Origin: Hyphochytrium catenoides
Lineage: Eukaryota; Sar; Hyphochytriomycetes; Hyphochytriales; Hyphochytriaceae
Assembly: GCA_900088475.1 (NCBI GenBank)
Contig: FLMG01000368.1
Coordinates: 1 to 60,931, forward strand
DNA: 60,931 nt
Direction: 5' to 3'
Below are positions 5,305 through 59,900 of the stretch, in pieces. Below the pieces are notes generated by a model. It did no database searches. It was not told the DNA's origin and saw nothing but the letters and a program-made list of their open reading frames with translations. The translations under genes and the position numbers were made by a program. Each line of letters opens with the position of its first letter. Position 1 is the stretch's first letter.

Positions 5305-6151
5305 CTTTCGCCTTTATAGCAGGGGTAAGACTAATCACGATACGTCCCTAACTGATCTCCGGTCTGTGAAAAAATGATGTGAGGAGTAGATGTTGATGTT
5401 TGTTCAGCTGCTGGCCCTGGCTTCAGAAGCCAGAAAGCTAGGAATTGGACGGCGGCGAACAATGACTTCTGGAGAGTGCAGCAGCAGCATCCTCAGCAGC
5501 AGACAAAGCTCCGCAAAGCTCCTGAGTGGGCTGAACTGCCGCTCTGCAGCTGGCAGAACTGCCGCTCTGCAGCTGGCAGAACTGCCGCTCCACAGCTCGC
5601 AGAAGTGCTGCTCTGCAGCTGATGTGCTTGATGCTTCTTTCTTCCCTTTCAGAGATCAGCATTAGGAATGCAGCTGTTTATTTATTTGGAATGCTATGGG
5701 GTGGTAGCTGTTACTGTACAGTACATGTCTGGAATCCTTTGGCTCTATTCTGAATTATGGCATACATGTCCACTTTGGGCTTTTCCACTTTCCCACTTTC
5801 CCACTTGCGGGCGATTCCAAATCCGTAATACTCTTTTGGCTTTTGTCAAGAATACAGTACACAGAATTTTCCCTTGTTCCTCTCTTTCTGATCTCAGTGC
5901 TCGGGGCAGCTCCTCTTGCGGAAGCTTCAACCTCAGCGCTGACGGAGGACAGAGATTATCGGCTTTTGAGACAAAGATTATCGGCTTTGGAGTCAGAGAT
6001 CAACGGCCCTCTAGGAAGGAGAGTGTAAGCGTGAAGTGGCTTTGAGGGTCTATAATTTTTTAAGAGGAAAGGAAGGGGCAGGTGAATCGGGTGCGGTTGC
6101 GAATGGGAAGCTAGAGGCTTTTCACACAGAGAGTCCAGGCATCTTGTAAGG
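5305..6151. other. Divergent intergenic region with minisatellite and possible upstream exon
   Basis: Separates the divergent MYND (-) and cation exchanger (+) genes, so both promoters should be here. It contains a 23-bp minisatellite (5534-5625), a near-repeat of AGATTATCGGCTTT about 5950-5995, and an open stretch at 5843-6028 whose N-terminus is signal-peptide-like (VPLFLISVLGAAPLAEAS). That stretch could be an upstream exon of the exchanger. Confidence 0.5.
5534..5625. repeat. 23-bp minisatellite, about four copies
   Basis: Units of 23 bp start at 5534, 5557, 5580 and 5603 with consensus AACTGCCGCTCTGCAGCTGG plus CAG. The first two are identical, and the last two carry a few substitutions. 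Each unit contains the palindromes CTGCAG and CAGCTG. Confidence 0.9.
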
Positions 6152-14916: not shown

Positions 14917-15545
14917 CTAGATGACTCCCGCAGATGAGATGGAGGTGGACTGAGACTCCCCAACTGTTTGGGCATACAATTCCCTAAGATCAGCGATATT
15001 CTGCGGCCCTGTGCTGAGCAGCTCCGTCACTTTGAACTGCGTGGAGTTTACCACTGAACGGACTGGTTCCCCTACCGGGCCTGCCGTCTGCCAGAGTTGA
15101 TCGAACACCCTGAGGGAGCAGACAGGAGAACGGAGTGGTTAGTGATGAAGAACGGAAACCAGCGGTTAAAGGAGCCATAGAGATTAACCGTTGAAGAGGT
15201 TTGGAAGTCACCTAGTCCACGTATCATGCAGTGAGTATAGGTATGGAAGCTTTCAGGTCGAAGAGAGTTCCATGGGTCAAGAGAGAATAAGGGAAGCCAA
15301 AGGCTATATATCAACCTCAACGTAAGTACGTAGAGTTCATAAAAGGCCATCGGATCTTGGAAAAGCTCCCAGAAAACCTCTGGTGTGGCGTTGAAGTTCC
15401 CTCCCTCCAACCTCAGTACATCCCCAAGCATGTGACACAGCTGGGAACCTACAGACGCGAGAGGATAGTCCTGCATAGACCCCTTTAGTATCCTTCATGT
15501 TGCCCGTCACCAACATAGCGTCTTTCTCTTCCTCTCTCTCTCACC

Positions 15546-15590
<45 letters not shown>

Positions 15591-17167
15591 AGTATGTCTC
15601 GGTCGGTCGCTCTCGCTCTCTCTTCCCCTCTTTCTCTTCTTCCTGGTCTCTTTCCTTCCTTCTGCTGTCCCGATCTTATGATCACCAGGATGGGCACCTT
15701 GGCAAGTACTTTGGCCCTCATTGCTAGTCAAGAGCTCGTTCCAGTCTTGCCAGCTCCTATCTCCCTACCTGTCGAGAGAGCACGGCAGCTACCTCGTCCC
15801 TACAATTTTCGTAGAGGAAGACCAGAGAACGAAGAGATAGCATGGACGGAATGTCCCGCCAGGGATCCTCAGAAGAAAAGCCAACCTGCCGAGTAAAATA
15901 GAGAATATTAGGCAGTTCCTCGTCTCCTTCTCTAGCTTGAATTGCATATCTCTTCTCTGTCGTCCTTTCTGTCCTTGCTGCCAAATCCCCGCTTCTCTAA
16001 GTGTTCATCTTCTCTTCAGTCTATACCTTTATCCAGAGGGAGGACAGCCTCAAGAAAGGCCTTCCCCTACCCACCGTGAGCCAAAGCTTTTGAAGCAAAA
16101 TCTCATGTTCTGGCTCTTGAGGCCTTGGAGTGGTCTGCAAGAGAACACGGAGGGCACCAAGCTGGCTTCCCGCCTGCGGCGATGCAGGCGCAGCTCCTCC
16201 TGCGCCTCTTCCTAAGCGAGAGAATGTTGAGGATTTCGCTTTGTCTAAGTCTCAATCTTCCCTCTCTGTTCCTCTTGCCTCAACGGCCGTCAGCACTTCT
16301 TTACAGCTGTCAGAGAGATTGGTAACCGTGGCTCCTCACCTCGATTGCGAACCACAGTCTGATAGAAACCCTTCGCTGTCCTCCCAAGCTGCTCGCCTAC
16401 AAGGGCAGGAAATGTTGTGGGGTTCACATAAGGAGCAATAGATAGTAGAACGACGAAGAAAGCAGAGATTAGTACGAATAGCTGAGAAGAAGAATGCACT
16501 GACCGACACAGAGGGAGTTCTCAGACACATTGGTGACATGGGTAAACACACAGGGAGCAAGAGGACGGAGAGATCTAACCTACCACCTGTTCCGAGAGAT
16601 CGCCGGACGACTCCTGACACAGACTTTAAGGCTGTCAGACCACCATAAGGCCCCGTCTAGAGAGCGGACGACGAAGGCGTGGTAGTCGGTTAGAACGCCA
16701 TCCTAATAGGAACGAAGAGGGATAATAAGGATGGATAGTACGTGACTTCTCACCTTTTCTCGGCGAAATGGTGCCCCTGGATCTCGGATAACCTCAGGAC
16801 CATGCTTGTCTTAATGTGGAAGACGAGAAGCAAGGTGCATTAGCGAGAGATTGCGAGAGCTGTTGGGCAAAATGAGGGCAGCGGTGAAGAGAACATTGAT
16901 AGGACAGTGCTCTTTCAAGGGAGATATATGAAAACCAAAAGGAAGAGGAGACAAAGATCTCACCGGCTGTATGGAAGATCTGCATATCCGAGTCAAAGTC
17001 TAAGACAGACTCTTCCTCGTCCCGAGTAAGCTGAGCCTTTTCACTCCCGTCCTCCGTCTCTTCATCGTCCTCTTGTAAGGGAAGAACCTAGCCGATACGA
17101 CACAGACGGTCCAAGTTCTAAGAACACTCTCTCACGCCATCTTTTGCTCTCTTTCTCTATTCTCCCT

Positions 17168-17213
<46 letters not shown>

Positions 17214-17873
17214 GTCTCACTTTCCCTGCAAGCAGTGACAAAGGTTCTAATGACTGGAAAGAGCCTTACTCAAATATCTGCCCATAACTGGCCCATAATT
17301 GGCAAAAAGAAACTGAGGAATAGGCGAGGAAGGAGGACAAGATTGAAGAACAGCAAGGCATGGGCAGCTAGAAGACAGAGCGAGGGAGAAGGAGGAGGAG
17401 GGACAGGGGAGGGGAGAGGACGAGAGGCGATGAGAGCGCCAGAGAGAAAGACAGAGGATGACAAGAGCTAACAGAAAGAGAGTGATTGACCTTAACATAG
17501 GCCACATCATCTGTCACATTCAGCTGCTGCTCATCACGAAGGAGATCCCTCCATACATAGTCTGCTCCGTTTCGTTCCCGGCATCGGAAGTGGAACTTCC
17601 CTTCGAAAGGGAAGGCGCGCCTCAGAGTCTCCAGGTTGCACTGAGTTAAGAAAGGGAAGAGATAAATGAGAGAAGGCAATCGTGTCGTTGCTGAGTCTTG
17701 AGAATGACTGGGAGCTAAAGGCACCCGGCAGCCAGAAGGGAAGGTGATGGTAGTAAACATGGTCTTAGCTCTATTACCTCGGAGGCGGGTAAGAGGAAGG
17801 CGGACGATGTGTCCGCAGGCAAAGCTCCAGCCGCTTGTATGAAGTATTCCACTCGCACGCTGCGCTGCGCCAT
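14917..17873 (-). CDS. DIX-like domain, hydrophobic segment and ELMO domain fusion protein
   Basis: Eleven exons close in phase (17778-17873, 17491-17640, 16964-17087, 16754-16809, 16587-16702, 16504-16519, 16340-16481, 16075-16211, 15769-15885, 15316-15470, 14917-15109), giving 433 residues. Residues 1-86 look like a DIX domain: VRVEYFIQAAGALPA (strand 1), NLETLRRAFPFEGKFHFRCR, then the VWRDL block and DDVAYVKVLPL. Residues about 187-206 are hydrophobic (LFVLISAFFVVLLSIAPYV), perhaps a membrane anchor. Residues about 265-400 are an ELMO domain: PEHEILLQKLWLT, VGFSSEDPWRDIPSMLSLRS, DYPLASVGSQLCHMLGDVL, ELFQDPMAFYELYVLTLRVF. DIX domains polymerise head to tail in cell-polarity and Wnt proteins; ELMO domain proteins regulate Rac- or Arf-type GTPases. 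Joint function is inference. One donor is a weak GTTGAT, and exon 6 is only 16 nt. Confidence 0.8.
15546..15592. repeat. (CT)n(GT)n microsatellite in an intron
   Basis: A CT run followed by TGTGTGTG in the intron that separates the two halves of the ELMO domain (15471-15768). In the sense of the gene it reads as (AC)n(GA)n. Confidence 0.85.
17170..17208. repeat. (CT)n microsatellite in an intron
   Basis: A nearly pure CT run in the intron between the second and third exons of the DIX-ELMO gene; GA in the sense of that gene. Confidence 0.85.
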
Positions 17874-18453
17874 GGTGCTAGCCCTTGCGGTGTCGGTCCT
17901 TCCTGTCGATGCTCACCTTGCCGCGGACATACTCTGACCATGCACGGCACGACTCAGCCCCTCTCTCACCTTGAACCCGACTTTCGCCGTGAAGCTACTC
18001 AGTCAGAGACTACCTCGAAGGGATCAACCAGACTGAAGACAGACTTAGCGATGATGGAGAGACCAAGAAAGCGCCGATGTCTCGGTCTCTTGAGCGATAC
18101 CACCAGCGCACTTCCGAGCAGCTCTTCATTTTGACCTTCACATCAACCCAGGATACCCACAGGGTTGCATGCTTAGCCATATTACCCAGAGGTAGGGTGA
18201 AAAGGTAGAGAATGTCTCGTCCGAAAAGCCCAAACTGAGACCTGGGTTTATGGAGCCACCACAGTTTGCCTCCCCTGTCAGATCCAAAAGTGAGATCTGC
18301 TGACGGAGCTCATCGAAGCTTCAGAACCCCTCGGGTCAGCACATCGGCTCTTTCGGCGAGACACATAAGGCCAGACCGCAATAGAGCTATAGATGTGAGT
18401 TTGTTGCAAGGCTGAGTAACTGTGTGTCAGCAAAGCAGCAGCCGGGACGACCA
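17874..18453. other. Divergent promoter region, 580 bp
   Basis: Sits between the DIX-ELMO start (-) and the EMC4 start (+). A minus-strand open stretch begins near 18179 (MAKHATLWVSWVDVKVKMK) but runs into a stop without a good link to the DIX exon, so I treat it as non-coding or upstream leader. No other structure seen. Confidence 0.45.
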
Positions 18454-19669: not shown

Positions 19670-19820
19670 AGCTGAGAGGGCCCAACCTAAATAGTTTTCT
19701 CTTTGTTAATAATAATTGCTTGAACCTGACTCTGATGCTTTGAAGGTTTTCACTCAGCAACAGCTCAGCTTCCCATATATCTGTTTGCCTTCTTGCTCTA
19801 CCTATCCTCCGCCAATTTTC

Positions 19821-21789
19821 TTAGCGCTTGCCCCGGTGCATGCGAAGCCGCTCGTATGCGGCTTTCTCTAAGGCCTCTCTATGGTCTGGGTGAGCTATAT
19901 CAATAAGCGCACGTGCTCTCTCCTGCAAAGATTTTCCAAACAGACTGGCAATTCCATACTCAGTCACGACGTAGTGGACATGATTCTGCGTGGTGGTCAC
20001 AGTGGAGCCATGTTGGAGATATGGCACAATCTTGGACTCTCCTTTTCTCGTGACAGACCCCATGGCGATGATAGGTTTACCGCCCTTTGATAAAGAGGCA
20101 CCGTGAATATAATCAACCTGCGAGTTGTGATGCTTGTTAGTAGGGAGTATGAGAATAAAAAATGACATGGCCGACGGCATCACAGACCTGTCCTCCGACT
20201 CCTGAATACATTCTTACGCCCAAACTGGAGGCGTTGACCTGGCCGGTCAAGTCTATTTCAATGGCTGAGTTGATAGCTGTCATTTTGGAGTGCTGCGAGA
20301 TGGTATTCACGTTGTTCACGTAGGAAATGTCCATCAAGACCACGTCAGGGTTGTTGTCCACAAACTTATAGAGTCGCTTAGAGCCCATAACAAAGCCAGC
20401 CACTATCTTGCCCGTGTGTCGCTCCTTCCGTGAGTTGGTGATGACCCCGTTTTCATAGAGATCAATAACCCCATCTGAGAACAGCTCAGTGTGGATACCC
20501 TATGGCAACAGTCAGCTTTCTTCATTTTTAAAATCAGACAGGGCGGATATTACTGACCAGGTCCTTGTGACTACCTAAAGCAGCTAGAGCAGCGTCAGGA
20601 ATGGCTCCGATGCCCATTTGCAGACATGCTCCGTCCTCTACAAGCTCATTGGCTATGAGCTTGCCGATCTTAGCCTCGACTTCACTGGGAGGATGAGCTG
20701 GATGCTCAAAGATTGGAAAATCTACGGGTACTAGAGCATCAAAGTGGCTCATGTGAACAATGCCTGGTACAAGAGAAGAGTGACCGGGAGGGGAGCCTTT
20801 TAGTCTTTGAACTACATGGAGGGGACAGGCCTCTGTGGCAAAGGAGCCATACACGACGTGGTAGACAGAGATTAGCAGAAAGATCGTGAAGCAACAGCTA
20901 AATAACCTAACAGCGCAATAGAACAGTTAAGGGAGAAAGTGGTATGTAGTCCTACCGTCACCAAATGTTCTTGGCATATGTCGGTTCATCTGGCCCACAA
21001 TAATTCTGGCACTCTTGATGGCTTGCCTTGCACCTAGAAAAGAAGACGAGCCCTAAGCCTTAGCTAGGATTCATACATAAGATCAGGGAATTTACGTACA
21101 GTCCACAGATACGCCAAGCGAGCAATACCCATGTTCATCGGGTGGGCTGACGTGGACCAAAGCGACATCCAGGTCAACGACTCTTTCTTTGAAGAGCCGT
21201 GGCACTTGGCTCAGGAAGCACGGGATGAACTCTGCCCGGCCTTCAGCGATTGCATCTCTCATGTCCTTTCCCGCAATAAAGAGGGAAAGGGGGCGGAAGT
21301 GCCCCTCGTACTCCGACGTGGCGTAAGGCGTGTTCCCCTCTGTGTGTATATGTACTGTCTTGATGTCTGTGAGGTTCTCCCGCTTTGCATGTCTGACCAT
21401 TGCATCCACAAGGACTGATGGAGTGGCACAGCCGCCGTGTATGAAGACCGTCTGCCCGCTCTTCAAAAAGCCCATACAGTCATCCGGCGAGCACATCTTT
21501 GGGCTGTGACCTATCACGCGCGCCATTGGCTCTTGGAATTCTCTGCCAACCTGTAGGAAGTGGTTAAACAACCGTTAGGTGACAGAAGTTAAAAGACGAG
21601 TAATTGCCGAGGGGATTTATAGGAGAGAGCTGTGAGAAAAGCAAATGCAGCCCCTACCTGGGTAGTAGAGTAAGTTCTCCACAGCTTAGGAAAACCATTG
21701 CTATTAACGCCAGCAGATATCATGGCTGGTAATCGCCTCATGGAAGGCCTCATAATAGAGGCCATGCGTTTGCTGGCCCTAGATATCAT
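19821..21789 (-). CDS. Mitochondrial acetyl-CoA hydrolase / CoA-transferase family protein
   Basis: Moves CoA between acetate, succinate or 4-hydroxybutyrate, or hydrolyses acetyl-CoA. Six exons close in phase (21658-21789, 21100-21550, 20956-21033, 20558-20763, 20188-20499, 19821-20117), giving 491 residues. The first 44 residues are basic with several Met and Arg and no acidic residue, a mitochondrial presequence. Family blocks: FIHGGCATPSVLVDAMV, the SLFIAGKDMRDAI block, DVALVHVSPPDEHGYCSLGV, MGIGAIPDAALAAL, TAINSAIEIDLTGQVNASSL (its first Glu is the likely catalytic residue by family analogy), GVGGQVDYIHGASLSKGGKP, and VTEYGIASLFGKSLQERARA. The substrate cannot be told from sequence; succinate:acetate or acetate CoA-transfer is plausible in a protist mitochondrion. 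Introns rule out bacterial contamination. Confidence 0.92.
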
Positions 21790-40200: not shown

Positions 40201-40751
40201 AAGGGTTAGAACGACTGATCTTAGATCGGACAAAGAAGAGCAGCTTGGCATGCTGCCTGCTGGACACCGCTTGACAACACCCGCTCACTGCCTAGGGGGA
40301 TCTAGGAGACAGACAGGAACAGACGATAGTGGAGAGGACACACACAACGATCAGAGAGAAGCGAAAGAAGAGAGAATACGAAGAGCGGAAGCAAGGAAGA
40401 GAAGAGGAGGACAAGAAGGAGAGAAGGGAGCTTGGGTTACGAAGCTTCCCTAGACGCGATTAGGGTGACGCCATACCGCCCAGCAGCAGAGGGAACAAAA
40501 GTACCCTGAGCGTTCTATTTTCTGCTCCTCTAGGGATGGCTGACTTTCCCCAGTTCCCACGCCGCTTCTTGGTCACTGTCTGAAAGTCTGGCCACTGTTC
40601 AAGTCGCCCCCTTGTAAGAAAGAAAGCAAGAAAAGCCTGTCTAACGGTGCCGCCGCCGGTGAGATTAGCGAGGCGGCGCCGCTGCTGATCCCTGGGCAAG
40701 CCTGTTAACCAGTTAGCGTTGCCCGCTGGAAGTGACATCAGATCCTGAAAA
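37209..40751. other. Gene-poor region, 3.5 kb, with gap and purine tract
   Basis: No exon that I can support. Scattered open frames, such as 38672-38866 on the minus strand (VIRPMKESLHRETRIVKLAV) and 39157-39339 on the plus strand, have no recognisable domain. Several ATTATTACT-type motifs recur between 38560 and 39540. From about 39800 to 40440 the plus strand is strongly purine-rich and is interrupted by a 155-base gap. The region could hold a decayed transposable element or a fast-evolving gene. Confidence 0.4.
39954..40108. other. Assembly gap (155 N)
   Basis: A run of N flanked on both sides by GA-rich sequence, so the missing bases are probably an unresolved purine microsatellite. Apparent open frames across it are meaningless. 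Confidence 0.98.
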
Positions 40752-41951
40752 ATGCAGCTTCTGTCAGACTCCGGCTCCAAGGAAAGCTTGCCAGCACCGG
40801 ACCTAGCAACAGAGGAAGTGTCGCAGATCAGCATGGAAGTAGAGGCATCAAGCAGAAAGAGGAGGGCCTCAGACCTAGAGAGTGAAGAAGGTGACACAGG
40901 AGAGAGTGACAGCCCTCCAACAAAGCTAAAGAGGGCGAGTGCCATGCAGCCGGTGCATAGGGGAGCACTTCAGCAGCTGCAGATCAAGACTAAAACAAAG
41001 GGCAAATCGAAGGAAAAGGGGTTTTCGACTGGCCGCTGGACAGAAGAAGAGCATGCTCTCTTCTTAGAGGGTCTGAAGAGATTCCCTTACAGAGCCTGGA
41101 AGAAGATTGCCACCCTCATCGAGACTCGGACGGTTGTCCAGATCCGCACTCACGCACAGAAGTACTATCAGAAGCTGGCAAAAGAGCAGGCACAGCGCCA
41201 AGCTCAGGGTGCTATAGATCAAAGGTCTTGTCCTTCTCCAGCTGAAAGCACCTTTCAGGGTTCCGAGACCGCCAAAGGGGCAGATGCTGTCTCCTCAAAT
41301 GAAGTTGATGTCGCAGGTCAGGCAATTCTACGAGGGAACGAGCAGTATTCAACGAGAAGACGGAATCTTCCGGCTCTCGCAGGTAAAGAGTCGAGTCAAG
41401 GTCCTGCCCTAAGATTCTCCACGCGCCTTCGCGCAGCAGCGGCAGCAGCTTCTGCGGAGCAGAAAGCAAATACCAGCCCTCCAACAGAAGCTTTCCCAAA
41501 GGTGCCATCGATAACTATCGACACCAGAATGGAAAAGGGCTTTGATGAAGGTAGCCCCACGGGCGTTCAGGACTTCTTCCTGAGTTTCTCCGACACCGCC
41601 AGGCCTGAGGAAGACTCTTCTCTACCAGAAGTGTTTGAAGATTTCCAAGATCCTCTGGATTGGCTTGATACAGTCAGTCGCGCAAGTTGCACGAGCACGA
41701 CTTTGTCTGCGTCTCCTGTTGAGGCAGAAGCCGAGACGGACGCAAACGACAGCGCATTTTGCGACTCTTCATCCTCGCCATCTTCGCCCATGTCCTCCCA
41801 GTTTGTTTGCTCCCCAGTCCCAGAGTCACCTCTCTGTTCTGACTTCTTTCCGGCCTTGCAGTTTGATGCTCTACCAGACATTGAGCCTCTAGTAGCCCAG
41901 GACTTCTCAGGCTTCGCTGATACTTTCCCAGCTGAGACACTTTTATACTGA
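40752..41951 (+). CDS. Single-repeat MYB transcription factor, SHAQKYF class
   Basis: Nuclear DNA-binding regulator; an intronless gene of 399 residues. The MYB repeat lies at about residues 95-145: GRWTEEEHALFLEGLKRFPY, RAWKKIATLIETRTVVQIRT, then THAQKYYQKLAKE. The third-helix signature is THAQKYY, a variant of the SHAQKYF signature of plant circadian/REVEILLE and many algal MYBs. Upstream are basic clusters (SSRKRRAS, KLKRAS, KTKTKGKSKEK) suited to nuclear import. The C-terminal third is rich in Ser, Asp, Glu and Phe (DFQDPLDWLDTVS, DALPDIEPLVAQDFSGFADT), typical of an acidic activation region. The target genes are unknown. Confidence 0.9.
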   Translation: MQLLSDSGSKESLPAPDLATEEVSQISMEVEASSRKRRASDLESEEGDTGESDSPPTKLKRASAMQPVHRGALQQLQIKTKTKGKSKEKGFSTGRWTEEEHALFLEGLKRFPYRAWKKIATLIETRTVVQIRTHAQKYYQKLAKEQAQRQAQGAIDQRSCPSPAESTFQGSETAKGADAVSSNEVDVAGQAILRGNEQYSTRRRNLPALAGKESSQGPALRFSTRLRAAAAAASAEQKANTSPPTEAFPKVPSITIDTRMEKGFDEGSPTGVQDFFLSFSDTARPEEDSSLPEVFEDFQDPLDWLDTVSRASCTSTTLSASPVEAEAETDANDSAFCDSSSSPSSPMSSQFVCSPVPESPLCSDFFPALQFDALPDIEPLVAQDFSGFADTFPAETLLY

Positions 41952-47950: not shown

Positions 47951-50900
47951 TTAACGAACAGATTGTTGCCTCTGTACCAGCTCGAACCACTGCCTTAGAG
48001 CGTCTGATAGTGCTTCCGGTAGCAAGTTTATGTCCCTGACAATCAGATAGTAGGGGAAAGGAAAGCTTTCCATGTAGGAAGAGACCTGCACCTTTCCGTT
48101 CACAAAGGCGACGGACTTGGTGTTCAAAATGGAGCTCTTCTCTTCAGGATGGTCAATGATTATCAGCACGACCAGCTGATTCCTCTCTTCCGCCTCGCGA
48201 ACTCTTCTAGCTATGCTGTCTCTTCCATCTTTGTCGTATCGGCCGTCAGAGATCAAGAAGACCAGCTGCATGCTTTCTCCTCCCGATGAGGAACGTTCTT
48301 CTCTCGCTCGGTGGAGTGCTTCGCTAATCATGTCAAGGGTTGCCGCCATGTGGGTTCTCTGCTGGGCAAAATGGAAGTTGCTAATGATCCTGGCACCGCT
48401 CTCGTCAGTGAAAGGCTGGTTGAAGTCTTGAAGGAGCGCTAAGCTCTCTCCAAAGCTTGTTACCGCGATATCTCCGACCTGCATCACGTGACGCCAGTAA
48501 GCCCTCCGTCCCTGAAAGGTTAAAGGAAGTTGTATTGCTAGTTGATTGGTTCCTACCTCAAGTTGTGACAGAGCCTTGCACACGGTAGTCATGGCCTCAA
48601 GAGCCAGACGTCCGGCATGGTTGTCCACCATAGATTGCGAGTCATCGATAGCTACCATAACCTGAACCAATTCCAAGGAGGCGGCGTAAACTATCGTGAG
48701 AAAGGTTGACCCACGATACGGGCAACACCGGTACGAGGGAGTGCACTAAAGACCCAAGGTCCATCTTTTTGAGGTGGTACCTGGTATGTTCTCTTCGACG
48801 GCTTAGTTCTTCTCATCCAAATCTTGTCTTTCCTATATTGGGAAGCAATGTAGGGGATTACGCGCCGCATGTTGAGACGCTTGCCGGTACGATAGTCCCC
48901 TTGGAGCTTGGTTGCCAGAAGCGGTTCCAGGATCAGCCGCAGCTGTGCAGAATTGGGTGAAATGGAGAGAAGAGGACGCAGAAAGGAATGAGTGAATGGA
49001 CAGTTAGCATCGACACGGACAGATCAGGACAGAAAGCTCGCAACAAAGACCAAGCGAGATGAGCCGCTAGTAAGTAACCGAGCGAAGAGTGGGTAATGGA
49101 GTAAAGGGAAAAGAGAACCCACAACAGAAGCCGCCCAAGCCACTCACTTGTTCGCAGAGTCTTTGAGAGAGATGTCCAGTGACAGCACAATACATTGACC
49201 ACAGGGCGGCACTCTCGTCAGAGGTGTAAGAGGGTTTTGAAGAGAACATGAGTTTGTCCAGCTCTTCCCTCAGCTGATCTACGTTCTTCCTTTCCCCAAC
49301 CGTACGCTCTGCTTGCGTATCCTGCAGTAGGAGGAGGTTAAGAGCCCGTCATGGTAATGGCGCAACAGGAACATAAAGCGAACGGAGTTATCTCATCACT
49401 AGATAGACAGAGAAGAGGAAAGATGAGCGCCAAGTGAGGAAGCATGCTTACCGTCGATGGCGCTGTAACTCCACTGTTTGTAACGATAGTCAGTTTATCT
49501 CTTCCGTCCTGCATGTCCTCCTCCTCTAGACCTGACGGTTCAGGGATGTTTTCTTCTGCAATCTGGGGCTCAGCATCCTTCTTTTCTTCCTCTCTCGAGT
49601 CTGTTGCTTCCCGCTCCTTCTTCGTCCGAGAGTTCATCTTGTCCTCCATTTCATCCTTTATTTCGGGCTTCTCCTTATCCATCTTTGGCTCATACTTCTT
49701 TTGAGCTTCCTCGGCCTTGTCATCCTCTTCCTCCTCCTCCTCCCGATCTTGGTGCTCTACAGAGTCAGTCATGTCCTTGGTTGGTGCCAGGGTTGTCTTG
49801 GTATCTTCATCCATTCTTTCAGTGAGTTCTACCGATTGGTCTTCCTCTCCCTCTCCCTTCTCTGCATCGTCGGCAGACTCTTGGTCTTCTTGGTTTGCTT
49901 GTCCTAGCTCCTCCCGGATTATCTTCAGTCTCCTCCTCCACTCCTTGATAGCACTCTCGGGGTCCTTGTAGGGGTTCATATCAATCTTTTCAGTGTCCAT
50001 CTCTTCTTCGCCGCTTTCCCCTGCTCTTCGTGACGCACGTGGATCCTTATCACCGTCATCCTCCGCCTTCTTTTCTCTCTTTTCATCCTCTATGTCTTCC
50101 TGATCATCTCTCTGGTCCTCCTCCGTGTCACGTGGCATCTCTATCTCTTCTGATTGCTGAATCCCCTCGTCTCCATTTGCCTGGTCTTCTACCCCGAAGG
50201 CTTGATCATTACTTCGCTGTCTCTCAGGTTGCGTCTTCTCTTCCTTCTGTTGTGGAGGCTGCTCCTCTTCGTCTGTCCTTTTTCCTTCTTCTTCCTCTTG
50301 TTGTTTCTCTTCAGGAACCTCTCCAGTCCCGCGATTTTCCAAGTCCATCTCTTCCAACCTATCCTCCTCTTCGAGTCCAGGATCCTCTTCCTCTGCGGCG
50401 GTAGGGTTCTCCACCTCCTCCTGCTCTTTTTCGCCTTCATCTTCTCCATTTTCATCATCGTTTCCATTTTCTTCCTGTTCCTGGCCTTCTTCGTCAAGGT
50501 TCATGTCCTCTGGAAGATCCTCAACGTGCTCCTCCTGATCGTCTTCAGGTCCCAGTGGATTATGATGGTTCTCTTCGTACGCACCTTCCTGGTCCTCGTT
50601 CACTTTCTCCTCTTCTTCCTCCAAATTTTCTTCTAGGTTGGCCTGCTTATCAGCGCTTTCTTCAGGTGGACTTTCCCCTTCAGGCTTGTCTTTCTCGTTG
50701 TCTTTAGAATCCTCTTGATCTTCCTTGCCTCGGACTTCATCTGGTTCGGGAGGTGCAGAAATAGGCGCGTCTTTCTCATATTTTTCCTGCTCCGCTATAT
50801 CATCTTCATCGTCGGACTCATCGCCCCACAGGCGTTCGTCTACCACCTATTTGTATACCAGAGTTAGACAGAAGACATTCACTGAGGTCCAACACGAAAC

Positions 50901-53900
50901 ATACAGAAAGCGCAAAGGAATGAAGTGGATGATGAAAGTTAGCGGTGGAGCTGAGAGGAGATCTAGTTGCCATCCAGTTTTGAGGAGCACAATCACCCTG
51001 ACCACCCGCAGGCTAGAAGGAGGATTTGACTGACCTCTTCCTCTTCGTCATCCAGCTCTCCCATCTCTCGGTCAAGCTCCTCCTTCTCCTCATCATCTCC
51101 ATCCTTCTCTTCATCCTGCTCATCCTCCTCAACATCTTCCAGAGTTCCTTCAAAGTCATTTTCCATCTCTAGTCCTTTCTTTTTGTCCTCGTTGGAAGGT
51201 TCCTGGTTCTCCTGTTTCTCCTCCCCCTTGAGTCCCAGTAGCTGTTCTTCATCCTCAATCTGGTCACTGACATCCTTTTTGCCCTCCCCTTCGCCCATTC
51301 CTGGCACACCAGTACGCAGCACGATTTAGGACGGTGATGCCGGAAAGGAAGAACGAGGGTGACCCGAAACTCATGTTAACATGGGAGAAAGAGAGAAACA
51401 AAAAGGATAGATTGATCAACAACGAGAGAGAGAGACAGACAGAGAGAGATACTGAGAGAGAAAACGAGGCAGAAGAGAGAGATGTTAAGTGAGCAAGAGA
51501 GAGAAAGAGAGACAGAGACAGAAAGAGTCGAGAGAGAATTCAATATAGTGAAAGCATATCTCATCGGCCCGCCATGTAGTACCTGTTCCTTCCACGTCAT
51601 CGGTAAATTTGCTCCCTTGTTGCCCTTCTCCGTCCTCTTCTTCGCCCTCCGGACTTTGACAAAAGCCGTGCCTGGTGAGGTTCCTGGAAACTCTGATGGC
51701 TATAAGAGTCAGCTTTGCTACTGCCTTATGGCCGGAGAGCAGGTCTAAGAGCAGTCCCTTGAGCGCTGAAGAGAGTAGAGACAGGAAGTACGATGAAGAG
51801 GCAATCGAACGAAGATAGAGCACGCTCTGGTCATCGTTTCGTCCAGCGGAAGACGTAGTAGGTGGCGAGTATTGAAAGGCCTCCTGCATAGCGGCTTCAG
51901 TTTTCCGAACTAGATTTCCAAGATCGAGCCGATAAAGGAAGCGGCAAAGGTCAGAATGCAGGTTAAGAATTCCAGCATGTTCAGGTTCTTCGGCTTCATT
52001 ATCCCCTCTCGACTCGCTTGTGCGCTTCCACTTATACAGCTTTTGAGCAACCAGCAGTAGCTCCTCAACGTACTCCCCGTACATGGCAGTTGATCTTGGC
52101 AGGGTAGCCTGGCGTTGTTGATGTTCGTGCTCCATCTCCTCAGCCGTTAGAAGACAGCTCATTTTCTTAACCTCAGTGGACTCACAGACTCTATCTAAGA
52201 ATTGGGCTACAGAAGCGAGAGAGCGCTCTATGACGGCCGCTTGCGTACCATTTTTTCTTTGTTGTTCGTCCTCTCGATCGCCCAAAGATGCCATCTGCTT
52301 CTGCGTTGCCCTAAGTACCTTTAAGTTGTCCTCCAGAACATTGAAGTCCTGCCTGCCGAACACTTCGGGACGCTTGCTTGTACGGGTCTCAAGGTCCCTC
52401 GTAATTTCCAAACGGGCTTGGATTCTACTTCGAATAGCAAGTAGAGTGTTTCGGATGGCTTGGCTCGGGTTCTTCTGGCTTTGCAGGAGGAGTAGAAGAC
52501 GCGAGAGAGAGTAGTAGAGCGTTTGCATCGTTTGCAGCTGATAAGTGAGCCAATCCTTTGCTCGGGCAGAAGAGAAGTATGGGCCACTTCCTCTATGGCG
52601 GTCCGCCACAGCTTCCTCGCCGTCGTGGGGTCTCTCCTCAAGAGATTGTAAGAGGTGAGAGAGTTGATCCAACTCATCTACTGCCTTCACAACATACAGA
52701 ACCAGCTGCCTCTGCTGGATCACAAGATAAAATAAATGTTCAGAGAAGCCCACCATCTTCTCTACCTCTACAGAAGACAGGTCTCCACTAAAAGAAGAAG
52801 AAGAGTCCGTTCTCAAAGCTTGGATTTGGGCAAAAGAACGGTAGAAGTAGTCGTCTGCCCTTTTCCAGAGCCAGTATTCTCCTGAATAGTCCCGTTGAGA
52901 GCGCTCTTCTCCACTCTTTCCGGCGTCACTAGTGTCTGTAAGCGCGGTGCAAGCAGAGATCAGTCCAGCACGAAGTTTCTCTTCAACCGTGGCAAGAGCC
53001 GGCAGAGAGAAGACTTTCTTGGGGTCTTTCTGCTCTAAGGGGACAGATGCAGAACGGAATGAGAGACCTTCCTCCTGAAATGCCTTAAGAAAGTCCACCA
53101 GCGCCCTCTTCTTCTGTGCCTTAGGGGCATCTTTAGCCCTCAGATTATGCATTCGGGACAGGATGGAGGAGGAGTACTCCTCACAGATCTCTCCCAAGGC
53201 TCTTCGTTTTTCACTCACTCTCTCGTCAGAGAGGAAGGATGACAAAAGCTCACGCATTCTCGACGCATAGCTGTGGGTCTTCCCCAGGCTTTGATGTGCC
53301 AACGTAATAGGAGCGGTGGTCCTAAGAAATAGGGAAGAAGTTAGAATACAGTAGGCATCGGAGCTTAAAGAGACATACCAACAGCTGTCAAGCTCCTTCA
53401 TCCTCTCAAGGCACCGCAGCTCGTCAATGGTCAAGCGGTTGGTGAGGCACAATGGTCCAGGTGTTTTCTTTTGTCCGTTCTGAGCGACCCGTTTGTTACT
53501 TTTTTTCCTCTTTTTTCGTGTTTTCTCCATCGCCTTATGATCTGTCTCCTGCTCTTCTTCAGGATTCTCTTGCTTTCCAAGCTCCACCTGGTCCCCCAGA
53601 GATTGAAAGAGCTTCAAGTCACTATCTAGAGCTGTGAAGGCATCTACCGCAAGCCCACCCTCAATAAAAGGGGAGAAAACGCCTTCCATAGGCTTGCTCA
53701 ACACTTCTTCTTCATATTCACGCACTAGCTTGTGCAGTCGTCGGTGGGATTTCTCGGCGGATTCTGTAGGCACGAGCAGTTAGTAACGAAGCTTGTCTGA
53801 GATTCGGGGATGAACCTTGTGAGAGACAGATAGATCTAACTTAGCGAAGTCTAGGATCTACCGATTGCGAGAGAGGGCTCTAGCTTGAAGAACCGTTACA

Positions 53901-56900
53901 GTCAAAGGGTCGCCCTCGGATAGAGTGGGACAACGAAGTAGCAGAAACGAAAACTAGAGCAGAGTGATAAAGACAGAGTCGAGCAAGCGTACCTGCTAGT
54001 GAGTAGTAAGACTGCTCATCCCACTTGCTGATTTTGGCATGCTCTTTTAGTTTCCTCTCAATGGGTCCTCGGGATAGACCGACTGACTCCTTCAGAGCGG
54101 AGAGGAACTGCTCGTAGAATCGAGAGAGATGGAAAATGAAGAAGGCGATACGCTCTCGCCCTTCTGTTAGCCTCTTAAGGTCCGGTGAGCTGGGGTTGCA
54201 TGTCATTTGGGACATCTACGGGGCAGATAGAGAGTGGTAGGGAAGGGTGAGATTGAGTGCCATAGGACAGAGGGATGCACAGCGCAAAATTGTTAAGAGA
54301 CATCAACACATCGTCGACCGGACTTAGCGACAAGGTTCTTCAAGAGTAGACTTACCTCAAACTGGAACTGTCCCCAGAAACTCTGTAGCATTTCCAGACG
54401 GCTTAGGAATTGTCCCACGGTGGACGATCGTAGGAACTGGTCTAAGGCTTCTGCAAGCCCTAAGAGGTACTCTTCATCTCCCTCTTCCACTTCCTCTGCC
54501 TCGTTCCCCTCTGGATCTCCTACATGTGGTCGCTTGCGGGGTCTATCCAAACTCCATAGTGCTGAGGAATGTAGATTAAGCCAAGTACGGAGAGAGTTCC
54601 AATGGTCTCTTCCTGTGCAGTCTGAACGAGAGGACTGAGAGTCACTTCCGCCCGCCAAAATCTCGTGGTAATTCTTAGGAGAATAGCGTTCGTTGAGGAG
54701 CCGAAAGAGGTCAAACCAAAGACGTTGGCTTGACTTGACGGCACGCTGATCGCAAACCTGCAGAAGCTGAGGCCAGGAGCGAAGCTCCAGCCTTCGCCAC
54801 CGCGAGACGAGGGCAGAAAGAGGAGATAGTACGGTGGAAAGGGAAAAAGACGATGCAGCTACCTCCTCCCACTCCTGAGACTTCCTTAATAGGAGCTCCA
54901 AGCCAGATAACACCTACGAAGCTGGCGTTAGGAATAGGCAACGAGATCGTGATAAAGAAGTCTAATTCTAGTTAGAGAGGAGCCGAAGGAAATAGAACTA
55001 GTGCTTGTCTTTGGGTTCAGAAGACAGAGGCTCCTGAACCCGCACATAGGCTAGGCATTACCTTTCCAAGTGGAGACGTGATTGGAAATCTTCTTATCCT
55101 GTCGGCAATCTTGGCAAGCTGATGCAACACCGCGTGTCCGGGCCATTGTCGCAGAAGATCGCCGACTGCCCTTAGATAGTTCTTGAGGGGAAGAGATAGA
55201 AGTTGGACTTCTGATGGACAAGGAGAAGAGTTGAAATCCAGGGCACTTGCTTCTCTGTCAGTCATAAATCTCTCTCCACTGCCCTCAGGAGTGTCATCAC
55301 CTTTCTCATGAGAAACAGGGAGAGGAAGTGCAAGGGCAGCTTTACCCTCAACCAAGGCTTCAAACGGCGATGAGATTGCGGAGAGAAGGACGACAAAGGA
55401 GCCGCTAGCCACCCAGTCAATGGACTGAGGCATAGTGCTGGCCACCTCGGCAAGCTGAGAGGCCATTGCTATTCCGTCCAGAACGTCAACCAGTGTTTGT
55501 CTCTCTTCTCGTTCTGCTCCTTTGCATTTCGCATCTGAATCAACTTTAGCGCGCAAGAAGAGTCGCTGGTATTGTGCATAGATGACTTGGATATCCTCCT
55601 GCGTAAAGGTTATTGTATCTGATTGATCTGTGTCACAGGGAGAAGTGGCAGAAGTAAGCATGGGCCTATACACCTAGGGAAGTGAGAATGGACAGTAGCC
55701 AGAGAGGAGGATACAAGAGGAGGATACTAACGCTGAACTGCCTCCCACCTTTTTGATTGTCGGAGTTGCTCTCCCCAGGGTTCTGACCGAGAATATCCGC
55801 GAAGTCAACGTTCTGGAAGTCAGGAAACCTCTCTCGGAATTCCCTCTCCTCTCTCGTCAGTTCGTCCTCGACTGGTTCTTCCTTTACCCTATATTTTATC
55901 AGTTCCCTTTCCTTCTCCTTTTTCTGTCTTTCCTCCTCTTGCTGCTCGGCCCAAAGAGAGCACAGCAAAGTGAAGAGTTCATCAGCCATCTCCTTACTCC
56001 TAGCATCCATTTTAGAGGTTGTGCAGTGTCTCACCAATCGTTGTAGGGCGACGAGGATGAGGGTCAGCTTCAGTCTGGTACTCTCTCCCTTCGAGATATC
56101 CTTCAGATGCCCAACTGATCTAACTTTTCCGTTAGGAAAATCCCCTACCAGCATCTGGGCAGTTGACGGGCTATAGAGCACCTTGGTCGGGGCCAGAGGG
56201 TGAGAATCTGAGAGAAAATCAGAGAATGTCGGGAGAGTAAAGCCCAACAAGGAGCTTAGTACTTGATACTGATCGTTTTGCATTTGCTTATCTCTTTGTT
56301 GAGTCAGGTGTTGCGCGGAGAGGCGTAGCGCCTCTCGGACGTCGTAGACGGACAGGGAGAGAGGAACCCAGATATCACGGTAGCCCGAGAACTCAGAGCT
56401 GAGGCGAGACAAGAAAGCGTCTACGCTAGCTTGCCATACATTCTCCTTAGCCAGAACTCTCTCTTCTTTGGTCCTAGTGTCTTGTGTCTTCTCATTTCCG
56501 GTGTGGGATGCGGCCAACAGCTCATCAAGCAGTTCCAATACTCGTTTTGCTTGCATTAGACTGCTGCTGAGCTTCTGCAGCTGCTGGAAGAGGAGAAGGA
56601 ACGATGGGGATGCGCTGCGGAGACCATGCAGAAGTATTTGCTGAGGTCTCTCTACTATCTCTTCTCTCAATCTCTCTAGTTCTCTTAGGGAGACGTCTCC
56701 TTCCTGGTGGATAACAGTACTGGTAAGCCTTGGAGCCTTTGGTCCTTCATGTACTCTCATGTAACGATTAGGAGAAGACGGATAGCCCTTGTCGGACAGA
56801 GAGGCCGGATAGCAGTTGGTCACTTCTTCGTGACACTTCGCCGCGAACCACTTTGTGAAAAGTCGGGTAAGTCGTTGCTCCTGGAGCTCTGCTCTCACTC

Positions 56901-59900
56901 TTGGCTCTGAAGTTGGGTCTAAAGGAGATGCAGGAAGTAGAAGGGTAAACTTCAAGAGTCCTACCAAGCATAGTAACCTAAGGGCATCCTCCCTCGGTAA
57001 CCCTTCCTGCTTCCCGTCTTCTCTCTCAAGAATTTGGACCATCGGCACCAAGAAGAGATTTGCCACATCTGGAAGTCTTTCTGCCACTTTCTGGACTGCA
57101 TCTTTAAGAGTAGAAATAGGTAAGGAGATGGACTCTGCCTCTGCTGAATGGATGAAAGAAATGCTTGAGCCAGCTCCTTCCACTGCCTCAGTCAAAAACG
57201 AAAGTACTTCCCAGCTGTCAAGCAGGGCTCTCCTGCACAGAATCGTGTGGTCTTTGGCACTGTCGCTCTCATTACTATCGGGAACCCTCATCTCCCAATG
57301 TTCCTGCAAAATTTTCAGTTGCTGCATTCTTGGAAGTAAATCTTGAATACTCAGCCCTGAGATCAGCAGAGAAGCTTGTCCGGAAACTTCAGTGCTTGTG
57401 GGGGCAGAAGAACACACTCGGATGCCGAGCTCCTTTAGAAGAGAGAGGGTGTATGCCGTCGAGAAGCCCTCGTTAAATCTGACTGGGCCATCTAGATGAG
57501 CGGGGGAAGAGTGAGGGGAATACATATTGTTGGTCTCTGATTGAAGGAGAGGAGGACTCAGCTCATGGCTGAGAGATGCCAAAGCAGGTAATCGCCACAC
57601 TCTCTTTTCCACTGAGAGGAGAAACATTTGCGTGGCCGAGAAGAAAGAACGGAGCCAAACTCTGCGTCTTCGGGCCTGCTCCTCAGTCATTCTCTCCGTA
57701 GCCCCTGAACATTGTCCAATCTCAGCACTCGTCATCCAGTCCGCAACAAGCCACCGCAACGTTAAAAGATTTCCCATGTGCTCCGGTGTGGCAAAAGAGC
57801 GTTGCTCTAGCACCGGCTGAAGCAGCTCGATAGTTTCCTGAATATTTTGCATAAGGGCCTCCAAGCTGCGCCCGAGTGCTACCTGATGAGGTGGCATGTC
57901 TCTCTTCTCGTACTCAGTCATCAGTAGAAGACTGACTAACTGCAGGAGTGACGCTATCTCTTTTTCTTTCCTGATGGCCCAGTGGTCATGCACAGCCCAA
58001 GTCTGGATGTCAGCCCAGCGGGCCAGTACACTGTCTGCATGAGATAGATGTACCAGGTTGTTCTCTATCAATTGCTCACTCTCGCTGACTCCCATGACAG
58101 CATCACCATCGTCCTCCTCCTCTTGGCGCTCAAGAGCAACACTCTGCTGCTTCCTGTCTTCAAGAAACTGCTGTCTCAATCTGCCTCCCCTTTCCTTGAC
58201 GATCGTTAGCAGGGCCTTTAATTCCGAGTTATTCCGCTTCCCCTTGTCTTGATGCATCCACCAGTAAAGTGTTGCCACAGCCTGATAAGAACGACGAGAC
58301 GATAAGTGTAACATTCCTCTAGGAAAGGGTAGGAGAGAACGAAACAGAGATTTGAGACCTGAGCCATTTCCGCCTTCATCGGTCCATCAATGTACAGAGT
58401 TGGATGGGTCTGACGCAAGAGCTCGGCAAGAGAGAGTCTCTGGCCACTATTGGTGCCATACTTATACTCGAATGATGAAGATGTTGCCAGCAACTCATCG
58501 TACACTTCCCAACTTGACCTAGCCATTTAGCAGAAGCAACAGGACAAGAGGAGCAGAAAATTAGATGAGAGTTATACATCAATGGCTAGACGGGTAGTCG
58601 AACAGCTCTGCGTGTGAGGAAGGCAGGAGGCGGCGTAACCCGCCAAAAAGTACAAGTCCATACTTTTTAAAAGGGGAGCCTCTAATGACGAGGATAAAAT
58701 CGGACATACAGACCTGTTAGTGGGTATCGCAGGATGCTTGCGCTTCCAGAAGGACACAGCCAAACGACGGTGGCGGCCCTCGCCATGCTGTTCTGAAGAA
58801 GCCGATAAGATGCTAACGAGGTTATGAGCTCTGTGTCTCAGTTCGTCTGACACTTTTCTCCTCTCCTCTTCCTGGCTCTTAGATAACTGATCGTACAGGA
58901 CAAGGCTTGCAATCAGGTTCTCTGTCCTCTTTATGCAAATCTCCACCGCGCTCGAAATCTGTCTCCAAAGCAGCAATTGCTTTTCCCATAAGCGCTCACC
59001 TGTACCCATCTCACACTGTTGACGTTCTACTATCATGGCCTCGCATTCTTCTCCAGAGTGAAATGCACCCCATAGCGAGTCGCGCAGATCTACCAGCTTC
59101 TCCCTTTCCTCTAGTATATCACTGGAAAGCTCAAGTGGTTCACTCATAGATAGTTGTATGAGAGAGACAACTGCGAGGAGTGACAGCTGTGCTGCCAAGA
59201 ATTCATCAATCGCAGTAAGAAGAGGGAAGAGGTATAGTACCGAACCCTCCAGTGCAGCTTGCACTTCTTGATATTGTGACAACCGAGGAATAAGGTCCTT
59301 ACGCTTGCCGACAAGCCCCTTGCTGGCGGCATAAGAGCGTTGCATGAGTGAAAGAGTGCCAAAGGCACTGGAGGAGACGGAAAGCGTCTCCTCTGCCTCG
59401 GAGTAGGCTAGCTTTTCTCGATAAACTTGGGGCACCCTGTCAACTTCCAGGTCAATGAGCGAACGCCAGCACTCGAGTTCCTTGAGTGTCGCTACAGTTT
59501 CTTCCCCTCCACAATACGATAGCCCGACGAGAAGGGAGAACAGTCCCTGGTTGTAACGGACGTCCCATGGACTAGCCTGTACAACCGCTGTAAGAGCCTC
59601 CTGAGTCAAGCTTCCAATGCTATGGCCAGCTGGTTGGCTTTCTTTGCTTAGTTGCAAGGGAGGGAGTCGGGCAAGAAGCACATCTCTTAGTCGTTGGAAG
59701 ACTTCCATGGTGGCAGAATTGAGGTGTCTAGCAGCAAAATACTCCAGCGCCTCACGGGTCTGTCTTGCCATACGTGCTCGCTTCTGAGAGTCTTCGCTCA
59801 AATTGTCTCCTTCGCACCTTACTAATAGGGTCTTCTCCAAACGTGCCAAGTTATGAACGACATGACGGAGTACAGAAGATGAAGAGTAGGCGAGAATTAG

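Follow-up and report, generated by a model that had tools for sequence, protein, structure and literature searches.

The window analysed here, the whole 60,931-nucleotide stretch of Hyphochytrium catenoides contig FLMG01000368.1, carries on its minus strand, at positions 17873–14917, a gene predicted to encode both a DIX-like and an ELMO domain. The frame used by the ATG at 17873 begins after a stop at 17913–17915, and the stop codon of the gene ends at 14917. The downstream, convergent neighbour encodes a ribosome recycling factor (Pfam RRF, 32.7 bits), and the upstream, divergent neighbour encodes EMC4 (104.3 bits); neither hints at a functional cluster. Other features lie further away. On the minus strand, a gene of the acetyl-CoA hydrolase/transferase family, possibly an acetate:succinate CoA-transferase, spans about 19800–21750 (outer limits guessed), with a Pfam match of 60.4 bits on 21101–21571. 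An open reading frame on the plus strand at 40749–41951 contains a Myb domain (Pfam, 46.8 bits) with an HAQKYY motif and resembles the plant-type SHAQKYF Myb proteins. Very long minus-strand frames at 47951–58386, which close with a VWA-like (sub-threshold) end after an acidic stretch, may encode midasin (MDN1); a 906-aa frame among them had no Pfam match. A tRNA-Ala with anticodon agc is predicted at 5517–5606 on the minus strand, and Rfam at the gathering threshold gave no match within the window.

The best model of the DIX-ELMO gene comprises ten exons, across all of which the splice phases close, and encodes 407 aa; we regard this predicted gene as plausibly real. The first-pass annotation had described 11 exons with closing phases and 433 residues: its gene ends, strand and phases were retained, whereas the exon number and the length were revised. 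Exon 1 (17778–17873) encodes Met1–Glu32, the first part of the DIX-like domain, and exon 2 (17491–17640) encodes the core of this domain, including FHFR and VWRD, with the codons of W62 and D64 at 17553–17551 and 17547–17545. The final DIX residues (VLPL) are encoded by exon 3 (16964–17087) together with the acidic beginning of the linker, which continues through exon 4 (16754–16809), exon 5 (16612–16702, with an uncertain 3′ end) and exon 6 (16340–16396, the least certain exon) into exon 7 (16027–16211), where the first part of the ELMO domain, to SSLWIK, begins. Exon 8 (15769–15885) covers the ELMO region that matches the GAP motif of ELMOD proteins, exon 9 (15316–15470) continues the ELMO domain with the proline segment DYPLASVG, and exon 10 (14917–15109) contains the ELMO end, the C-terminal tail and the stop.

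Two of these boundaries are supported by the ELMO profile. With exon 7 extended from 16075 to 16027, LSSLWIKVGF is continuous and Pfam scores ELMO at 52.1 bits, compared with 38.5 bits for a model that also began exon 9 with two additional residues; a start of exon 9 at 15470 adds DYPLASVG and lifts the score to 71.7 bits. The junction of exons 5 and 6 is less clear. The donors at 16621, 16612 and 16609 are in frame but weak-looking, and the better-looking donor at 16587 is in frame only with an extra exon at 16498–16428, giving 11 exons (429 aa before the exon-9 extension). This 11-exon model is a possible alternative; the extra exon requires a 31-base intron and has the lowest coding score, −0.37 per codon. 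The main exons score 0.06 to 0.35 per codon, exon 5 scores 0.08, and exon 6 scores 0.16 against 0.22 in another frame. The power of these scores is limited, the homology-supported extension of exon 7 itself scoring −0.22 per codon and the windows for coding and intron sequence overlapping (10th percentile of coding windows, −0.05; 90th percentile of intron windows, 0.21). Earlier models of 379–398 residues (stop counted) were set aside for the 407-aa model, as were models of 428–432 aa that include a hydrophobic stretch (before the exon-9 extension).

The predicted ELMO domain is secure. Pfam matches it at 71.7 bits (E 1.1e-19) on residues 212–353 of the 407-aa model, which bears out the ELMO C-terminus of the original description, and the genome holds three more ELMO genes that the ELMO part matches, with E values of 6.4e-5 to 6.4e-4. 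At E values up to 1, the only Pfam matches of the 407-aa model were to ELMO and, both below threshold, to DIX and HrpJ. The GAP consensus of the ELMOD family, WX3G(F/W)QX3PXTD(F/L)RGXG, contains an invariant catalytic arginine, replacement of which by lysine is reported to abolish GAP activity (PMC8483735). The window protein retains W-x3-G-F, D-P and D from this motif, and the region reads DPWRDIP--SML; the catalytic arginine is absent from its place, which is taken by a proline codon at 15849–15847.

This arginine is present in five of the eight aligned ELMO stretches of the genome and absent from three, including that of the window; the alignment leaves out C293, C904, C380 and one C786 place among 13 matches in total, and one of the five arginine-bearing stretches (L008) was chosen by eye outside the Pfam match. 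Another stretch (L007) does not reach the GAP motif. The other two ELMO exons that likewise lack the arginine are L004 (contig C637, DLQPFG) and L006 (contig C421, DFSQGG). The aligned region of human ELMO1, DFTQTPPGML, is also without it, and human ELMOs have been described as lacking a GAP arginine, possibly with another region in mind (PMC11290852). Because the catalytic arginine is missing, partner binding appears likelier for the window ELMO domain than ELMOD-type GAP activity, which we disfavour as its mechanism. A genome search for DHR-2, the DOCK domain, gave no match; since no control genome gave one either, this negative is uninformative about a DOCK partner.

Proteins that combine DIX and ELMO domains have been described as ARAMIS, one of four DIX families, the ‘Musketeers’, that occur in alveolates and stramenopiles (Kostareli et al., mBio 2025; PMC12077222). 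That study lists 1,452 DIX candidates and characterises ARAMIS further by a disordered linker carrying short linear motifs and by a DIX domain with a large L1 loop that forms its own subclade in a DIX tree. Two further DIX genes were found in the genome analysed here. The ATHOS-like gene (L009/L025) lies at about 120.5–121.8 kb on the minus strand of contig C291; its spliced DIX domain scores 54 bits in Pfam, and 12 of its 13 PDB matches are to Dixin, Dishevelled or Axin. Frames rich in Pro, Met and Gly come after the domain, and one of them has a DPF motif; the longest tail frame terminates in a stop and, in the unspliced reading, has no Pfam match. The DARTAGNAN-like gene (L010/L024), at about 5.5–7.2 kb on the plus strand of contig C522, encodes a protein in which a polar linker joins a DIX domain (34.9 bits) to an auxilin-type J domain (auxilin match, E 9e-24). 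Exon-by-exon genome searches did not find a fourth DIX gene (PORTHOS), which does not imply its absence, and gave no match for alveolin or LHC, for which only one bacterium matched among the control genomes. These last two negatives carry little weight; a SAR host, perhaps a stramenopile without photosynthesis, is suggested with low certainty.

Comparison with these relatives helps to identify the N-terminus of the window protein. By itself, the segment of residues 1–86 matches Pfam DIX at 18.4 bits (E 0.002), below the curated cut-off of 22.2, and the match within the whole 407-aa protein, at 14.4 bits, is likewise below the cut-off. When the 42.5-Mb genome was searched in six frames, the ATHOS-like DIX domain matched window exon 2 with an E value of 4.4e-8 and 35% identity. 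The pairwise score between the two DIX domains is 113, compared with 22.6 ± 4.2 for shuffled sequences, none of 2000 shuffles reaching 113. A profile built from the three DIX domains of the genome, the window's included, retrieved nine PDB sequences at E values up to 1, all nine of them DIX. Searched alone against PDB, the window domain retrieved no DIX chain, its three matches all being weak and all to one unrelated dioxygenase; an earlier full-length model found neither DIX nor ELMO in PDB, its single match being weak and unrelated. Judged by this homology, the predicted N-terminus is a divergent DIX domain, related to a clear DIX domain of the same genome. The initial assignment of the N-terminal 86 residues to DIX thus finds support in the ATHOS-like relative, although the Pfam score falls short of the cut-off.

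The motifs associated with DIX polymerisation are only partly conserved. W62-R63-D64 retains the W-x-D motif and aligns with VWLD and LWLD in the two paralogous domains. The second motif reads D-T-S-S in the window domain, with the aspartate kept, against D-H-P-N in the ATHOS-like domain and S-H-P-N in that of the DARTAGNAN-like protein. For the plant SOSEKI protein SOK4, W83 and D85 of the tail-surface W-x-D are described as key contacts, the D85A substitution as blocking polymerisation, and D33, H34 and H36 as forming a head surface with a D-H-x-H/N type motif; the same source reports that DIX domains of the SAR group form polymers in vitro (PMC7042713). By motif spacing rather than alignment with SOK4, the window domain has the tail-type W-x-D and lacks the head-type D-H-x-H/N. 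Because W-x-D is kept and H-P-N is replaced by D-T-S-S, we infer that the window DIX domain would attach by a single face to polymers that its relatives form more easily than it would lengthen them.

In the 407-aa model, the N-terminal DIX-like domain and the C-terminal ELMO domain lie in the same predicted protein, separated by a linker that is about 125 residues long and in part acidic. With closing phases and both domains found, the placement of DIX and ELMO in a single collinear gene, as first proposed, is supported. The gene very probably encodes an ARAMIS-type Musketeer protein, an assignment made by setting its predicted architecture against the published description, which has the same N-terminal DIX-like domain, linker and C-terminal ELMO domain (PMC12077222); as there, other Musketeer-type genes share the genome. 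The suggestion that the locus represents an undescribed system does not survive the 2025 publication of the DIX-ELMO architecture: because ARAMIS has already been described, the window gene is a further example and not a new system. Among the matches listed for open-licence papers, no further title on a DIX-ELMO protein was found besides PMC12077222. In a collection of 5.8 billion proteins, no homologue was found for a 384-aa model among the best 8000 word-sharing candidates scored (E up to 0.001). Queries with the two domains of a 397-aa model found none either, the DIX search covering 40 candidates at E values up to 10 and the ELMO search 1164 candidates at E values up to 1.

The predicted protein differs from each of the better-known families with which it shares a domain. 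ELMOD1–3 and the plant ELMODs, which are ARF/ARL GAPs, have in common with it the ELMO domain and, within the GAP motif, the W-x3-G-F, D-P and D elements, but in the window protein the catalytic arginine is absent and a DIX domain is added. ELMO1/2 and CED-12, the DOCK partners, share the ELMO domain and, in ELMO1, the absence of the arginine; their chains are longer (727–733 aa for ELMO1 against 407 aa in the window model), and neither their armadillo-type N-terminus nor their PH domain was found in the window protein by Pfam at E values up to 1, its N-terminus being DIX instead. Dishevelled, Axin, Dixin and plant SOSEKI share the DIX-type domain, whereas their further domains are absent by Pfam and an ELMO domain takes their place.

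How such a protein might act is suggested by the combination of retained and lost motifs. The DIX-like domain would dock on DIX polymers of the ATHOS-like or DARTAGNAN-like protein through its retained W-x-D surface; docking would concentrate the ELMO domain at one site, where it would probably bind a GTPase or another partner and not act as an ELMOD-type GAP. We consider this reading, of an ARAMIS-type protein that docks on other DIX proteins and whose ELMO domain binds without ELMOD-type GAP activity, reasonably likely on the basis of the predicted sequence. In Phytophthora palmivora, spectra of ARAMIS were reported in pulldowns of tagged ATHOS; in that account the ARAMIS–ATHOS contact comes from mass spectrometry only, co-expressing strains being described only for ATHOS and DARTAGNAN (PMC12077222). 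The first-pass annotation had envisaged a polymerising polarity module physically coupled to GTPase control, perhaps at a membrane. The combination of DIX with ELMO stands, while the membrane segment has become doubtful, and the lack of the residue on which ELMOD GAP activity depends weakens the case for direct control of a GTPase.

A protein that instead forms homopolymers through its DIX domain, like Dishevelled, and whose ELMO domain is an active ARF/ARL GAP by means of another arginine appears unlikely. Its W-x-D motif is kept, polymerisation is documented for SAR DIX domains (PMC7042713), and an arginine is available three residues upstream, in the DPWRD of the WRDIP motif; however, the H-P-N of the paralogues is replaced by T-S-S, and the arginine described as essential in ELMODs (PMC8483735) is not at its place.

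The docking model requires no membrane segment, and the hydrophobic segment originally placed between the two domains appears only in models that treat 16498–16397 as coding and enter it from one of three weak phase-1 donors; these models yield proteins of 428–432 aa. This stretch, non-coding in our model, is pyrimidine-rich and ends in TTGTAG (ACATTTCCTGCCCTTGTAG), resembling the 3′ end of an intron; it scores −0.11 per codon, compared with 0.06 to 0.35 for the main exons, in what is a weak test. We therefore take it to be most likely the 3′ portion of an intron rather than coding sequence, and the membrane part of the first reading is doubtful for this reason. A membrane-anchored DIX-ELMO protein has in its favour that the stretch is open in a fitting frame and hydrophobic, its peak hydropathy over 19 residues being 2.55 against 0.94 in the protein without it; given the intron-like end and the codon score, as well as the main text of PMC12077222, where ‘hydrophobic’ and ‘transmembrane’ have 0 occurrences, such a protein is very unlikely. 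Less credible still are two neighbouring genes, one for a short DIX protein (exons 1–3) and one for an ELMO protein (exons 7–10), a division that the weak donors at the exon 5/6 junction and the low scores of exons 5 and 6, the latter not in its best frame, would allow, but against which stand the phases closing through all exons, the clearly coding linker exons 3 and 4 (0.35 and 0.29 bits per codon) and the fused DIX-ELMO architecture known in relatives (PMC12077222).

Within the docking model, a more specific arrangement can be imagined, which we rate as distinctly doubtful. ARAMIS would be a one-faced DIX adaptor whose ELMO domain is GAP-dead; it would cap or decorate ATHOS and DARTAGNAN polymers without lengthening them, and the DIX proteins together would form a split regulator of clathrin coats. 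If so, DARTAGNAN would contribute the auxilin-type J domain, the ATHOS-like tail its DPF motif and ARAMIS an ELMO domain that binds the ARF family, and DIX polymerisation, in place of a single GAK-like chain, would bring these parts together. For DARTAGNAN and PORTHOS, the comparison with GAK was put forward as speculation by the authors of PMC12077222; the addition of ARAMIS and the DPF motif is our own proposal.

With this locus, one more genome is added in which three Musketeer-type genes occur, along with two testable details, the loss of the ELMOD catalytic arginine and the loss of the DIX H-P-N motif. Neither detail was found in the text consulted from PMC12077222, where ‘arginine’ has 0 occurrences. 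As predicted from the gene model, both losses point to ARAMIS being an adaptor rather than a classical GAP.
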